Shown one piece after another: positions 16,655 to 37,892 of a stretch of DNA of 41,519 bases. This DNA is from Candidatus Berkelbacteria bacterium CG10_big_fil_rev_8_21_14_0_10_43_13 (GTDB lineage Bacteria; Patescibacteriota; UBA1384; XYA2-FULL-43-10; 1-14-0-10-43-13). The stretch lies in contig PEZW01000028.1 in the NCBI GenBank assembly GCA_002773985.1, forward strand, positions 1 to 41,519, read 5' to 3'. The position numbers and the translations under genes are program-made. The notes beneath the pieces were generated by a model that was given only the letters and a program-made list of their open reading frames with translations, was not told the DNA's origin and searched no databases. Positions within the stretch are counted from its first letter, which is position 1. Each line of letters starts with the position of its first letter.

Positions 16655-16713
16655 CCCCACTTCGCTAAAGCTACGCGGGGCGAGTCTGCTGAAAGTAATA
16701 TTTGGAGAGTCGA

Positions 16714-17871
16714 ATGTCACTTAAAATTGCAATAGTTGGGCTTCCAAACGTCGGCAAGTCGACTTTATTCAACGCCCTAGTCAAAGGTTCGAAAGCAGAA
16801 GCTGCCAATTATCCCTTTTGCACTATCGAACCAAACACTGGTATTGTCGAAGTGCCGGACGAACGCCTCGCTCCGCTCGGCGAAATTTCACATTCAAAAA
16901 AAATAATCCCGGCTGTCGTCGAGTTTATCGACATCGCCGGGCTGGTTCGTGGCGCGTCCAAGGGTGAAGGTCTTGGCAATAAATTCCTCGCCCACATCCG
17001 CGAGTGCGACGCTATCGGCATGGTCGTCCGTTTTTTCGAAGACGGCAATGTCACCCATGTCGAGAATAAGATTGACCCGGAGGCTGACATCGCTACTATC
17101 GAAACTGAATTGCAATTAGCCGATATCACCACCGTCGACAAACGGCTTTTTTCGATCGAAAAGGAGCTGAAATCTGGTAGCGCCGAATCAAAATACGCTC
17201 ACTCCGGTTTGCAAAAAATAAAAGATAAATTATACGCCGGCGAGAACGCCCGCGAAGCCGATCTTGACGACTCTGAGCAAGATGCACTCAAAGGCTTGAA
17301 CTTGATGACGCAAAAACCGATTCTCTATATTGCCAACGTTTCAGAAGAACAGTTGAGCAATCCCGCTACTGTCATTCCTGCGAAAGCAGGAATCCAGGAC
17401 TCGCCACATAGATCCCCGGGCACCACTCTCAAGAACACCGCTGGTCCCGAGGATGACAACAAAAAGAATGACAATTTCGTGCCGATTTCGGCTAAAATTG
17501 AAGCTGAATTGAATGAATTGACCGACTCAGAAAAGGCCGAATACCTCGAAACTCTAGGTATTAAGAATACTGGCTTAAACGAACTGATAAAAGAAGCTTA
17601 TAAAACACTCGGGCTCATCACCTACTTCACCTCCGGCGAAAAGGAGACTCGCGCTTGGACGATACGCAAGGGAGATACTGCACCAATTGCCGCCGGCGCG
17701 ATTCACACCGATTTTACCAAGGGCTTCATCGCCGCTGAGATCGTCCAATGGGCTGATTTCTACGCCCAGGGCGGCTGGACCGGCGCCAAAACTCACGGCC
17801 TTGTCCGAACTGAGGGCAAGACCTATGTAGTGAAAGATGGGGACACAATTATTTTCAAGTTCAATAACTAG
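16714..17871 (+). CDS. ychF: Redox-regulated ATPase YchF (Obg-family GTPase)
   Basis: MSLKIAIVGLPNVGKSTLFNALVK, VEFIDIAGLVRGASKGEGLGNKFLAHIRECDAI, TGEKETRAW-type and GAIHTDFTKGFIAAE motifs. Confidence 0.96.
   Translation: MSLKIAIVGLPNVGKSTLFNALVKGSKAEAANYPFCTIEPNTGIVEVPDERLAPLGEISHSKKIIPAVVEFIDIAGLVRGASKGEGLGNKFLAHIRECDAIGMVVRFFEDGNVTHVENKIDPEADIATIETELQLADITTVDKRLFSIEKELKSGSAESKYAHSGLQKIKDKLYAGENAREADLDDSEQDALKGLNLMTQKPILYIANVSEEQLSNPATVIPAKAGIQDSPHRSPGTTLKNTAGPEDDNKKNDNFVPISAKIEAELNELTDSEKAEYLETLGIKNTGLNELIKEAYKTLGLITYFTSGEKETRAWTIRKGDTAPIAAGAIHTDFTKGFIAAEIVQWADFYAQGGWTGAKTHGLVRTEGKTYVVKDGDTIIFKFNN
17369..17460. repeat. REP-like repeat inserted in frame in ychF
   Basis: CTGTCATTCCTGCGAAAGCAGGAATCCAGGACTC...GATCCCCGGGCACC...GGTCCCGAGGATGACAA encodes ATVIPAKAGIQDSPHRSPGTTLKNTAGPEDDN; its reverse complement matches the 33899-34020 and 22919-23034 elements. 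Confidence 0.88.
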
Positions 17872-17879
17872 GCTCGCCA

Positions 17880-17901
17880 AATCCGCCAACTGGCGGAGGC
17901 G
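17880..17901. repeat. Palindromic repeat AATCCGCCAACTGGCGGAGGCG
   Basis: 22-mer also present with one mismatch in the groEL 3' coding region (23089-23110, opposite strand). Confidence 0.75.
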
Positions 17902-17930
17902 ATGTGATCATCTTTCGTTTCAATAACTAA
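17898..17930 (+). pseudogene. 3' remnant of a second ychF (GDVIIFRFNN*)
   Basis: GGCGATGTGATCATCTTTCGTTTCAATAACTAA against the intact end GGGGACACAATTATTTTCAAGTTCAATAACTAG (GDTIIFKFNN*). Confidence 0.88.
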
Positions 17931-17991
17931 ACTATCTTGCGAAATATTGAAATCGTGCTAATATACAAGTCAATGCGACGGGGGGGCGTCG

Positions 17992-18135
17992 ATGCGTTTT
18001 TTGGGTCCGATCTGGCCGCTGTGGCTGGCATCCGCTGCCGCAGTGGTTGTTTTATGGCTCATCATCGTGGCAAATCGACTACTTACAAAGCCGACAACCA
18101 CCGATGACACTACTGCTGACCAAATGGGAGGCTGA
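17992..18135 (+). CDS. Small single-TM orphan protein (47 aa)
   Basis: MRFLGPIWPLWLASAAAVVVLWLIIVANRLLTKPTTTDDTTADQMGG; preceded by a TGCTAATAT-type -10. Confidence 0.5.
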   Translation: MRFLGPIWPLWLASAAAVVVLWLIIVANRLLTKPTTTDDTTADQMGG

Positions 18136-18137
18136 GG

Positions 18138-18278
18138 ATGAAGCATCTCACACTGGTTGCACTGGCTGGCTGGGCGCTGGCAATCAGGCTGACGGTAGCG
18201 TACTTCAGACTGAAACGTCAGCTGGTTCGCGCTCGAGACATGCTCGACACCGCCAGAATCCTCGCTGACCCGCATTGA
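18138..18278 (+). CDS. Small single-TM orphan protein (46 aa)
   Basis: MKHLTLVALAGWALAIRLTVAYFRLKRQLVRARDMLDTARILADPH; GGGAGG SD overlapping the preceding stop. Confidence 0.5.
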   Translation: MKHLTLVALAGWALAIRLTVAYFRLKRQLVRARDMLDTARILADPH

Positions 18279-18299
18279 CACGGAGGAGGAACTGAGACC

Positions 18300-18545
18300 A
18301 TGGTACTGTGGTATTACGTCATCGTCGGAGTGATGATCGGCGTTGTCGTCGGAGCGATCGTCACCTACACTCTCGAGAAGGCGACGTTGAAGGTCTATCG
18401 TCGTCGCGATCACGAGCTGAGAGCAGAGACCATTGGTCTCGAGATTCAGCTTAAGGTAGCACAGGAAGAGGCCGAGCGGTACAAAGCGTGGACCAGGCTG
18501 CACGAAGTGTCTGGTGGGGTGGACCGAGGCGACAAGCCATTCTGA
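18300..18545 (+). CDS. Small TM plus coiled-coil orphan protein (81 aa)
   Basis: MVLWYYVIVGVMIGVVVGAIVTYTLEKATLKVYRRR...EAERYKAWTRL; GGAGGAGG SD. Confidence 0.65.
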   Translation: MVLWYYVIVGVMIGVVVGAIVTYTLEKATLKVYRRRDHELRAETIGLEIQLKVAQEEAERYKAWTRLHEVSGGVDRGDKPF

Positions 18546-18558
18546 ACCCAAACAATCC

Positions 18559-18590
18559 CGGAGCCGTTGTGGCACTCGCCCAGCGGCTCC
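18559..18590 (+). terminator. GC-rich hairpin after the first membrane-protein trio, no strong U-tract
   Basis: GGAGCCG...CGGCTCC. Confidence 0.5.
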
Positions 18591-18662
18591 AAGGAGACTT
18601 AAATTATTTCATTTAAATATACAAAAGTGCTATATTGACCAGAGAGACTAGGAGGCTCGTCT

Positions 18663-18779
18663 ATGCTAATTGTGCTCAAGTGGCTAGGAGGGCTGGCTCT
18701 CCTCGTCATTGGCATCATCGGACTGTTCGCCCTGAACCATTTCTTGGCGAATATGTCGCAAAACGACAGCGCACGCTAG
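18663..18779 (+). CDS. Small single-TM orphan protein (38 aa)
   Basis: MLIVLKWLGGLALLVIGIIGLFALNHFLANMSQNDSAR; TAGGAGG SD. Confidence 0.5.
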   Translation: MLIVLKWLGGLALLVIGIIGLFALNHFLANMSQNDSAR

Positions 18780-18787
18780 GAGTAGAG

Positions 18788-18952
18788 ATGGAAAAGCTAG
18801 GTTTTCTGCTCGGAGCAGCACTGGTGCTGTTCGTTACGATGGTTGTGATCATCCGTCGCGGTCACCACAACGAGCAGTCGCACCGCGCCACACGACTGAC
18901 GATGGGGGCACCGAAGCCTCGACCGACCAAGCCAAGAGAAAAAGACGCTTGA
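18788..18952 (+). CDS. Small single-TM orphan protein (54 aa)
   Basis: MEKLGFLLGAALVLFVTMVVIIRRGHHNEQSHRATRLTMGAPKPRPTKPREKDA; 8-nt gap from the preceding stop, TAGGAG SD. Confidence 0.55.
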   Translation: MEKLGFLLGAALVLFVTMVVIIRRGHHNEQSHRATRLTMGAPKPRPTKPREKDA

Positions 18953-18980
18953 ACAACGGCTGTCATCGCCCGCTACTGCC

Positions 18981-19016
18981 CGGAGGCTGACGTGCCATCG
19001 TGCATCGTCAGCCTCC
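18981..19016 (+). terminator. GC-rich hairpin after the membrane-protein pair
   Basis: GGAGGCTGACG-tgccatcgtgcat-CGTCAGCCTCC, no U-tract. Confidence 0.55.
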
Positions 19017-19198
19017 ATGGAGAACTCGAATCCTTGTCAATCTAATATTTTTCTGCTACTATAAACACACAAATTAATTAACTTTCTTCCATCGAGAAGA
19101 ACCGATGCTCGAACTAAACTGAGCGTCCTTCGACTCCTTCGCCTGCCATGAGCGCAGTCGAATGGCTCAGGATACCTTCGGTACCAAAAGGAGAATTT

Positions 19199-19933
19199 AT
19201 GCGAAAGTACGAAATTACGTACCTTGTTTCTGATCTTGTGCGTGAAAACGATTTGAACAAAGTGACCGGCGCGGTTGCTGGTTTTGTGACTGAGCTTGGC
19301 GGCAAAGTAGAAAAAGAAGAGATCTGGGGACGACGCAAACTCGCCTACCCGATCAAGAAGGCTGACTTCGCTACTTACGTCACGCTCAATTTCGAAATGC
19401 CGAGCGAAAAGTGTCCTGTGTTTGAACGCGATTTGCGTCAAAATACTTCTATCATTCGCCATTTGGTAATCGTCAAAGAACATGGTCATGAGAAGATTTC
19501 ACTTTCCAAGGCGGAGATTGCCGAGTCTGGTGATATAGAAGAAGTTGTTGGCGGTGAGAAATCGTTTGAAGCCATCGAAGGACAGACAGAGGAAAGTCGC
19601 AGTTTGATGGCCAAGCGTGAGGCTGGCGAAGACGAGGCTGAGGAAGAAACCGAGACAAAGTCTGAAACAGAGAAAGAAGAACCCAAGGGAGTTGAGGCAG
19701 AAACAGAAGAGCCTGAAATCAGGGAAGAAAAGGAAGAGGAAAAGCCAGTCGAGAAAAAGAAACCAGCGGCAAAACCAAAGAAGACAGTAACCGAAAAACC
19801 CACTACAGAAAAAGTTGTCGAGGAAAAGCCAAAAGCAGCCAAAGTAAAGAAGGAAAAGAAGACCGAGGATGAAGCTGATCGTTTGTCAAAACTAAACGAT
19901 GAGCTCGACGACATCCTCAAAGATGAGTTATAA
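19199..19933 (+). CDS. rpsF: 30S ribosomal protein bS6 with long charged C-terminal extension
   Basis: MRKYEITYLVSDL...GGKVEKEEIWGRRKLAYPIKKADFATYVTLNFE; AAGGAG SD; E/K-rich tail; track ORF begins at 19148. Confidence 0.93.
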   Translation: MRKYEITYLVSDLVRENDLNKVTGAVAGFVTELGGKVEKEEIWGRRKLAYPIKKADFATYVTLNFEMPSEKCPVFERDLRQNTSIIRHLVIVKEHGHEKISLSKAEIAESGDIEEVVGGEKSFEAIEGQTEESRSLMAKREAGEDEAEEETETKSETEKEEPKGVEAETEEPEIREEKEEEKPVEKKKPAAKPKKTVTEKPTTEKVVEEKPKAAKVKKEKKTEDEADRLSKLNDELDDILKDEL

Positions 19934-22476: not shown

Positions 22477-22758
22477 TCACCGCCATCTGAACAGTTGACA
22501 GATCTGTTGCCAGAGTGACGGTTTGAAGACACGGATGTGCCCGCAGTTTTCTTTGTCCTCCAGAATGACAATCATCTGACCACAGCGCAGCGGGTGTTGA
22601 CGACAGATCGCCATGATCTCCGGAAGCGTACGCGCCTCTCCGATTGTCACAGCTCCCTCGAGCTGCTGTTCTGGGGCGTATGCATTCTCATAGACCTGCC
22701 TAGAGACCACGACTGCCTCGCACGATACCATAATCTTCTCCCCAAACCTAACGGTCAC
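22477..22758 (-). CDS. Orphan hypothetical protein (93 aa)
   Basis: GTG-start ORF with upstream GGAGG and own promoter; no family recognised. Confidence 0.5.
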   Translation of the reverse strand: MTVRFGEKIMVSCEAVVVSRQVYENAYAPEQQLEGAVTIGEARTLPEIMAICRQHPLRCGQMIVILEDKENCGHIRVFKPSLWQQICQLFRWR

Positions 22759-25430: not shown

Positions 25431-26042
25431 ATGAAACCAATCACTCGTGCTTACATCGATGTCGATAGCAAGAAGGGCTTGGCCCCATTCTCTCGGCACC
25501 TTGTCAAGCACGGTATCAAGATCATCTGCCCGCAGACGATGGTCTCAGAGTTTGGCAGCCGTGGTGTTCAAGTCACTGCTGTCAAAATGGTGTACTCCTC
25601 ACCATTGCTCCAGACAACCAATGGCAAGCGCAGCCCGTGTCAGAGCGCGCTACAAGGAGAAAAACCGAACAGGCTGTTCTCCGTCGACGAGATGTTCTGC
25701 TTCAACGTTGGCGGGGTTGAGCAGATCGGCCTCGTCGTCGTCAACCTGCCGCTGCCCTGCAAGGTGTCACGACCCCAACTCGGTGATCAAAGCACTGAGG
25801 TTGAACGCACTCGGCTCGCTCTGTTGACAGCGGCGACCTACGAATCCGGCGTCATCGTCATCTACGACCCGTTCCAGTATCGATCTTTCGTGAAGAAACT
25901 GGAGTGGCGTGGACTCGATCATCAGGCCGATGCCGCTTACCTGTGTGAGCTGCGACAAAGTGCCTTGGGCTTTCTCGCCGCTTTCACTGCACAGCGCGCC
26001 CAGGCCTGTGCCGCAGCCACCGAGACCAGCGACGATGAATGA
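25431..26042 (+). CDS. Degenerate IMP-cyclohydrolase-like (PurH N-domain/MGS-like) protein A, 203 aa
   Basis: TRAYIDVDSKKGLAPFSRHLVKHGIKIICPQTMVSEFGSRGVQVTAV aligns with PurH RALLSVSDKxGxVEFAxALxxxGVELLSTGGTARLLxExGxPVTEV; EQIGLVVVNLPLP with PIDMVVVNLYPF. Confidence 0.75.
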   Translation: MKPITRAYIDVDSKKGLAPFSRHLVKHGIKIICPQTMVSEFGSRGVQVTAVKMVYSSPLLQTTNGKRSPCQSALQGEKPNRLFSVDEMFCFNVGGVEQIGLVVVNLPLPCKVSRPQLGDQSTEVERTRLALLTAATYESGVIVIYDPFQYRSFVKKLEWRGLDHQADAAYLCELRQSALGFLAAFTAQRAQACAAATETSDDE

Positions 26043-26054
26043 AATCGCGTCGCT

Positions 26055-26115
26055 ACACTCCCCGCAGCCACCCTGAGCAATGTGTTCCAAAAAAAATACA
26101 GAGTTCTCGGTGGCT
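26055..26115 (+). terminator. Hairpin between the two PurH-like genes
   Basis: GCAGCCACC...GGTGGCTGC. Confidence 0.5.
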
Positions 26116-26249
26116 GCACAGCCCCCAAAATAATTTGCAAAAAAATATTTAGAAGCCAGCATTTAACAGTACTGGTCTTTCTTTTTTTGTCTGATTATGG
26201 TATGGTCGGCTCAACCTCAAGCACTGAACTTGAGACCAGGAGACAGACC

Positions 26250-26873
26250 ATTCTACAGATTCATCGGGCACTACTCTGCCCGCGTGCATTCAACAATCTC
26301 GGCGGATTGACAAGAGGGTTGCTTGATCTCGGTGTTAGGACAGACACAACAAGCGAGATCATCAGCGCCTTGAGTTTCAATTGCATTGAAGATGAACTTC
26401 TCACTGATGTCATCACGCTTCCGGGCATTGGTGGCTGTTACCGCTCCGCGGCCTGGTGCATCCACCCTCGCATCATCGGGGCGATTGCCGCTGCGACACC
26501 TGAAGATGTGACGCGCGCAGACTTCTGCAAGACCATCGGTGTCCAGCCGATCGACCTCGTCATCGTCAACTTCATCGACCCCGAAGTGACGGAAGAAACG
26601 ACGGCTGAGGAAGCGGCGATGATGATCGACGTCATGCGCTACGCCCTGCTTGTCGCGGCGATGAACCCCGAAGTTGCCGTGCTGACTAAGCCGAATGACT
26701 ACGACGAGTTCCTCACTGAACTCCGAAAGCACAACGGCTCGATCAGCCAGGAGTACCTCGACGACCTCAATGCTCTGGCTTGTGACACGCTGATGATTCT
26801 CAACCATGATCTCTTCACGCTGACACAGCCGATCCACGCCGGCACCCACGCCCAGTCGGCACCGACCCCCTGA
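26250..26873 (+). CDS. Degenerate IMP-cyclohydrolase-like (PurH N-domain/MGS-like) protein B; AUU start proposed, 207 aa
   Basis: RALLCPRAFNNLGGLTRGLLDLGV..., CIHPRIIGAIAA (PurH TLHPKIHGGILA), GVQPIDLVIVNFIDPE, MIDVMRYALLVAAMNPEVAVLTKPNDYDEFLTEL; AGGAG SD 7 nt before ATT. Confidence 0.75.
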   Translation: MLQIHRALLCPRAFNNLGGLTRGLLDLGVRTDTTSEIISALSFNCIEDELLTDVITLPGIGGCYRSAAWCIHPRIIGAIAAATPEDVTRADFCKTIGVQPIDLVIVNFIDPEVTEETTAEEAAMMIDVMRYALLVAAMNPEVAVLTKPNDYDEFLTELRKHNGSISQEYLDDLNALACDTLMILNHDLFTLTQPIHAGTHAQSAPTP

Positions 26874-37262: not shown

Positions 37263-37892
37263 ATGACTGACAGTAGAGCCTGCTCGGTCTACCTGCAACT
37301 ACAGGAGATCGACGGAGGGATGGTTGAAGACGGTGACGAACTGAAAGTTGGTCGCTACTACAAGCTCGTCGTCGAAGACCTCTCGAGCGGAGCTGACCGC
37401 CTCGATCCCGAGTGCGGTATCACCGTGACGACAACTCTCAATGGGAACGAACTGCGAACCTTCTTCGACCCGCAAACCACGATAGCTCGGATTGCGGAGG
37501 AGGGGGTGTATGTCGTCAGCCTCAAGATTCCGGGTCGCAACGAACCGGTGGTCTTGACTCTGATTGCCGGCCCTCCACCAGTCTTCGAGTCACAGATCGA
37601 GGTTTACATGGAAGCTGGCGGTATCCACAAGGTCAAGGCGACACCAAGAAATCCTGTCCGGGTACTGATGAGTGTACAGGTCCGAGTGTTTGGCATCGTC
37701 CAGGGCGAGGCCAGACGTGAGTTGAACGCCGACAGAATCGCTGTGTTCGGACCTGATGGCAAGGAGCACAGTCTCAACAAGACCTTCGCCCGGTTTAATC
37801 CGGTTGAACCTGGTCTACACCGAATCGTCTGCCACGTCCACGGTGACAACGATGGACTCCTCGTCGAGACTGAGCTCGAGGTTGTCCAGTAA
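37263..37892 (+). CDS. Orphan beta-rich hypothetical protein (209 aa)
   Basis: CAGGAGAG SD; GC-richer than neighbours; alternating hydrophobic pattern suggests beta-sandwich; no signal peptide seen. Confidence 0.65.
   Translation: MTDSRACSVYLQLQEIDGGMVEDGDELKVGRYYKLVVEDLSSGADRLDPECGITVTTTLNGNELRTFFDPQTTIARIAEEGVYVVSLKIPGRNEPVVLTLIAGPPPVFESQIEVYMEAGGIHKVKATPRNPVRVLMSVQVRVFGIVQGEARRELNADRIAVFGPDGKEHSLNKTFARFNPVEPGLHRIVCHVHGDNDGLLVETELEVVQ

Follow-up and report, generated by a model that had tools for sequence, protein, structure and literature searches.

Two mini-operons of predicted small membrane proteins between ychF and rpsF of a Berkelbacteria genome, and a counterpart in a sister species

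Five plus-strand open reading frames (m1 to m5), flanked by ychF (16702-17871) and rpsF (start at approximately 19199), are very probably genuine protein-coding genes of lineage-restricted membrane microproteins. They form two units, m1-m2-m3 (operon 1) and m4-m5 (operon 2), each with a -10-like element and a strong 3' hairpin. Because a corresponding mini-operon occupies this position in a sister species, where promoter core and hairpin are the same and the proteins almost unrecognisable, the genes look both real and fast-evolving. In general kind, the cluster most likely belongs to the known small bitopic membrane proteins; literature searches found no account of the locus. The analysed stretch of DNA (41,519 nucleotides; "the window") makes up most of contig C23 in a genome of 838 kb (G000). 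The features of the locus are the following:

17956-17964, plus strand: P1, extended -10-like element TGCTAATAT of operon 1 (sequence, pattern scan)
17992-18135, plus strand: m1, 47-aa open reading frame with a single transmembrane (TM) segment; lacks a Shine-Dalgarno (SD) motif, G-run within a small hairpin
18138-18278, plus strand: m2, 46-aa open reading frame, weak TM segment and basic tail; marginal tail likeness to n1 of the sister species
18300-18545, plus strand: m3, 81-aa open reading frame, TM segment followed by a long charged helix
18557-18596, plus strand: T1, terminal element of operon 1 (CCCGGAG-hairpin-CTCC-AA-GGAG)
18624-18640, plus strand: P2, promoter core AAAGTGCTATATTGACC of operon 2
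18663-18779, plus strand: m4, 38-aa open reading frame with a single TM segment
18788-18952, plus strand: m5, 54-aa open reading frame, TM segment and basic tail
18979-19022, plus strand: T2, terminal element of operon 2 (CCCGGAG-hairpin-CTCC-AT-GGAG)

Coordinates and lengths of the five reading frames had been given exactly in the initial annotation, and the stop-to-start distances within the units, estimated there as 2-21 nt, measured 2, 21 and 8 nt. Its statement that most of the genes have a purine-rich SD sequence agrees with the AGGAG-type motifs of four of the five (m2 GGAGG, m3 AGGAGG, m4 AGGAGG, m5 AGGAG; m1 with a G-run alone). The sole candidate ribosome-site G-run of m1 lies within the small hairpin CGACGGGGGGGCGTCG (17976-17991) directly 5' of its start, where control of translation is possible. 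Upstream of the cluster, ychF has a doubled 3' end (17842-17871, ...DTIIFKFNN-stop; 17898-17930, GDVIIFRFNN-stop); the second is out of frame, lies beyond the palindrome CCGCCAACTGGCGG, shows many synonymous differences and is closer to the sister-species version of the ychF tail. The doubling may reflect recombination, or an insertion, at the end of the gene. Palindromes of the type TCCGCCANCTGGCGGA recur in G000 (window 17883 and 23094; L053 953; L057 8953; L065 11010 and 12953; L066 85) and are scarce in the sampled genome of the sister species.

In 3000 dinucleotide-preserving shuffles of region 17901-19030, SD-led ATG reading frames that encode 35-100 aa including an N-terminal TM segment were absent from 2985 and present once in 15, compared with four in the real sequence; without the SD rule the real sequence contained five and the shuffles at most two. 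The minus strand of the same region held no reading frame of this size with a TM segment. Codon usage was scored with a model whose training set was 32 further GC-rich genes from both genomes, chosen for GC content and reading-frame length rather than from annotation: the log-odds of all five genes were positive and the highest of the six frames, m3 scoring best (22.6) and m1 weakest (4.2), and GC3 of the microprotein genes was 0.64 versus 0.46-0.54 in the neighbours. That the plus strand is non-coding, the true gene being the 201-aa antisense reading frame 17970-18575 or the five frames having arisen by chance, is extremely improbable: the antisense frame has no stop in 201 codons, but it covers operon 1 in full and has a codon score close to zero (-1.2), whereas the plus-strand frames score positively, and the plus-strand pattern is absent from the shuffles.

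Hydropathy analysis agreed with the single hydrophobic segment that the initial annotation had ascribed to each of the five proteins; the segment starts within residues 1-9 (best 19-residue Kyte-Doolittle mean 1.71-2.86, lowest in m2). With less than approximately 100 residues and one TM segment by hydropathy, m1-m5 and the two proteins of the sister species (n1 and n2) have the size and predicted insertion of small bitopic membrane proteins. Generally, basic residues mark the cytoplasmic side of a membrane protein (positive-inside rule): since such residues follow the TM segment in m2, m3, m5, n1 and n2, these proteins are predicted to adopt an N-out/C-in orientation, the charge signal being weak for m1 and undecided for m4. 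AlphaFold2 models from single sequences consisted of one helix (residues 2-71, mean pLDDT 81) for m3 and of a helix (residues 3-28) with a low-confidence tail for m5; single-sequence helix models of this kind are poor evidence, and an anatomy of TM segment plus helix is compatible with many roles.

Both -10-like elements by which two transcription-like units had been distinguished are present, TGCTAATAT in P1 and, by pattern scan, TGCTATATT at 18628 in front of operon 2. The proposal that each unit ends in a hairpin was borne out by strong folding at 18560-18590 and 18982-19016, but as neither hairpin is followed by a T-run or was listed by the terminator scan, they are not classic intrinsic terminators. 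The composite CCCGGRG-N(12-36)-CYCCAWGGAG, a pattern derived from the same three copies that it retrieves, matched twice in the window genome (T1 and T2), once in the sister species and nowhere else among 55 genomes of the class; the reversed-pattern control gave 0 matches. Since MAFFT placed T2 wrongly in an alignment of the three hairpins, their arms were compared directly: pairs 1-8 are standard in every copy, with variation at five of these eight positions, i.e. the arms differ in compensating ways, followed by A[AT]GGAG, a covariation whose three sequences are too few for strong statistics.

The sister species (G001, same genus) has retained the gene order of dehydrogenase gene, ychF, rpsF, ssb and efp, the flanking core genes being approximately 80-85% identical to those of the window with the exception of S6 (60% over the full length, 75% in the N-terminal part). 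Its ychF-rpsF gap contains one mini-operon of two small TM reading frames with helical tails, n1 (80 aa, SD GGAG) and n2 (63 aa, SD AGGAG). The sequence AAAGTGCTATATTGACC upstream of n1 is identical to P2 over 17 nt at the same locus, each of the two genomes has a single exact copy of the 14-mer GTGCTATATTGACC, and n2 is followed by a hairpin and AAGGAG. Near-matches of the promoter 14-mer elsewhere in relatives were not attached to clusters of tiny TM genes. Among the 21 protein pairs, m2 and n1 gave the top global alignment (z 3.6, p 0.005 against shuffles that keep segment composition; marginal after correction), with the common tail LxxQL...LDTAR...PH; otherwise the microproteins of the two species are nearly unalignable. 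On the conservation of reading frames in relatives, on which the initial annotation had made its interpretation depend, the sister species gives an ambiguous picture: unit, promoter core and terminal hairpin are kept and small predicted TM proteins are again encoded, but the amino acid sequences are unrecognisable save for the marginal m2-n1 pair. Based on the likeness of their control elements, the three units seem to form a single family, duplicated in tandem in the window genome. Such a contrast of kept control elements and changed proteins is unusual; many different sequences can form a TM helix or a charged helix, so that the proteins may drift although the transcription unit is preserved.

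Whole-genome queries in relatives were run with m3, m5 and n2. Against 99 relatives, m3 yielded weak matches only, mostly within long reading frames or carrying stops; m5 retrieved itself alone among 55 genomes of the class; n2 found none in 287 genomes of the phylum, a weak negative, since G001 did not appear in the list of genomes and a positive control was thereby lacking. No window protein exceeded the cut-offs of Pfam, PHROGs, NCBIfam and PADLOC. The searches accordingly point to no homologues beyond the genus and barely any within it. Likenesses of m3 and n1 to ZapG, MreC and GpsB lay far below the cut-offs and do not indicate membership.

A phage origin, one of the earlier suggestions, found no support: m1-m5 gave no significant PHROG match, and neither viral contigs nor phage records yielded a relative of m3. 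The n1 protein of G001 had one weak PHROG match (E 6e-4) over 22 coil residues, to a family of unknown function. The type I toxin suggestion fared no better, neither a good antisense promoter nor an Rfam antitoxin RNA family being detected at the locus. Although m4 (38 aa) and m5 (54 aa) match type I toxins or lytic (holin-like) peptides in size and hydrophobicity, it is very unlikely that the cluster encodes these: the minus-strand promoter candidates are poor (best TGCTACCTT at 18461, in a scan insensitive enough to miss P1 and P2 as well), two to three genes per unit with strong SD sequences contrast with the tight repression of type I toxins, and an adjoining lysin gene was not recognised.

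Both genomes contain many GC-rich orphan cassettes with a strong SD sequence and a strong terminal hairpin, scattered between core genes; the m1-m5 cluster, with GC and GC3 above those of the core, strong SD sequences, a hairpin after the last gene and a position between core operons, is of the same kind. The GC-rich orphan genes are located as follows:

Window: 22477-22758, minus strand; 25431-26873, plus strand; 37263-37892, plus strand
Further stretches of G000: L056, L057, L060, L062, L063 and L070
G001: L078, L079, L082 and L084-L087

An extended -10 pattern precedes 14 of 36 cassette starts, compared with 11% of random windows, and four of ten other cassette proteins had Pfam matches, to domains of purine or pyrimidine enzymes (AIR carboxylase, AIRS_C, OMP decarboxylase) and to a type IV pilin N-terminus. 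The sampled 363 kb of G000 (window included, approximately 43% of the genome) contained no second cluster of tiny TM genes. When the cassettes of a 166-kb sample of G001 were compared with that of G000, one of 17 had a clear relative (49% identity) versus 43 of 103 core genes (median identity 66% for 34 well-covered ones), a rough comparison in that both genomes were sampled and the cassettes were chosen by GC content. The sole cassette pair recognisable in both species (L060 4070-4777, minus strand; L087 159-881, minus strand) has no Pfam match; its upstream stretch TTGACA...TTTTTTTGTTGTATAAG is kept in both. Across the order, the ychF-rpsF gap measures approximately 0.3-1.6 kb in five genomes (G005, G006, G008, G009, G010) but reaches 5.8 kb in G004 and 7.7 kb in G002. 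Its contents are unrelated, and the site (16702-19933 in the window) is a variable insertion spot.

This turnover of cassettes, together with the unrelated contents of the spot and the near-unalignable proteins of the two genus mates, would also suit short-lived orphan genes that have not settled into a role, i.e. small hydrophobic reading frames that arise in GC-rich cassettes or travel with them, are expressed with hardly any effect on fitness and are soon replaced. We consider this somewhat unlikely, since promoter core and terminal element have been retained at the locus in both species, and the reading frames of both all encode predicted TM proteins with good translation signals. A role in conflict or immunity, such as blocking phage entry or cell rivalry, with arms-race variability and tandem duplication, would likewise explain hypervariable sequences flanked by kept control elements at a variable insertion spot, and two units in the window genome versus one in the sister; it is unlikely, however, as no PADLOC or PHROG family and no adjoining defence genes were recognised and fast drift alone can explain the same pattern. 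Rather doubtful, too, is the reading of the site as a hypervariable locus, perhaps shaped by an arms race, where promoter core and GGAG-trailed hairpin were held, a tandem duplication arose and the microproteins were replaced almost wholly between the sisters.

Our tentative preference is for a genus-restricted, fast-evolving family of mini-operons encoding small bitopic inner-membrane proteins that act as partners or scaffolds of envelope complexes; of the three functions initially suggested, envelope microproteins are the likeliest. The family would comprise two tandem units in the window genome and one in the sister species, each probably transcribed from its own promoter, as the -10-like elements and the conserved core suggest, and each ending in the strong hairpin with its A[AT]GGAG. 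Judged from charge, each protein would insert as a single N-out/C-in helix, and its short basic or long helical cytoplasmic tail may hold or tune a larger envelope complex, with cell-wall, division, secretion or transport machinery as candidate partners.

Among known systems, the small bitopic regulators of the MgtR type (less than 50-80 aa, one TM helix) are thought to contact larger membrane proteins (PMC6813294). The m1-m5 proteins resemble them in size and single TM segment, a likeness of anatomy only; the cluster differs in having two to three genes per unit. Like ZapG/YhcB (PMC8163987), the m3 model pairs a TM helix at the N terminus with a helical portion in the cytoplasm. This faint TM-plus-coil likeness speaks for the preferred reading, but m3 is not a member of that family: it has 81 aa compared with 133 positions of the ZapG model (NF008672), to which it scored 19.4 bits over residues 3-50 (cut-off 150), and it reached 10.9 with the Pfam ZapG-like family (PF06295; cut-off 33.5). 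In genomic islands of Patescibacteria, 61.6% of the genes in acquired regions are reported to lack an assigned function (PMC12455944); the cluster shares with these islands a non-core composition, no known function and a variable locus. In contrast to them, it spans approximately 1 kb at one operon boundary, consists of self-contained transcription-like units and has control elements conserved in two species.

Genomes of the CPR type are regarded as streamlined; here, one contains many orphan transcription units, some with genes of a size that gene finders may miss. A protein search alone misses such families, the relative in the sister species having been found via position and control elements. 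With two species, the same control elements and nearly unrelated microproteins, the locus offers a defined site for following directly how small membrane proteins arise, drift and are put to use; if the hypervariable-locus reading were true, it would be a fixed chromosomal site of this kind in an ultra-small bacterium.
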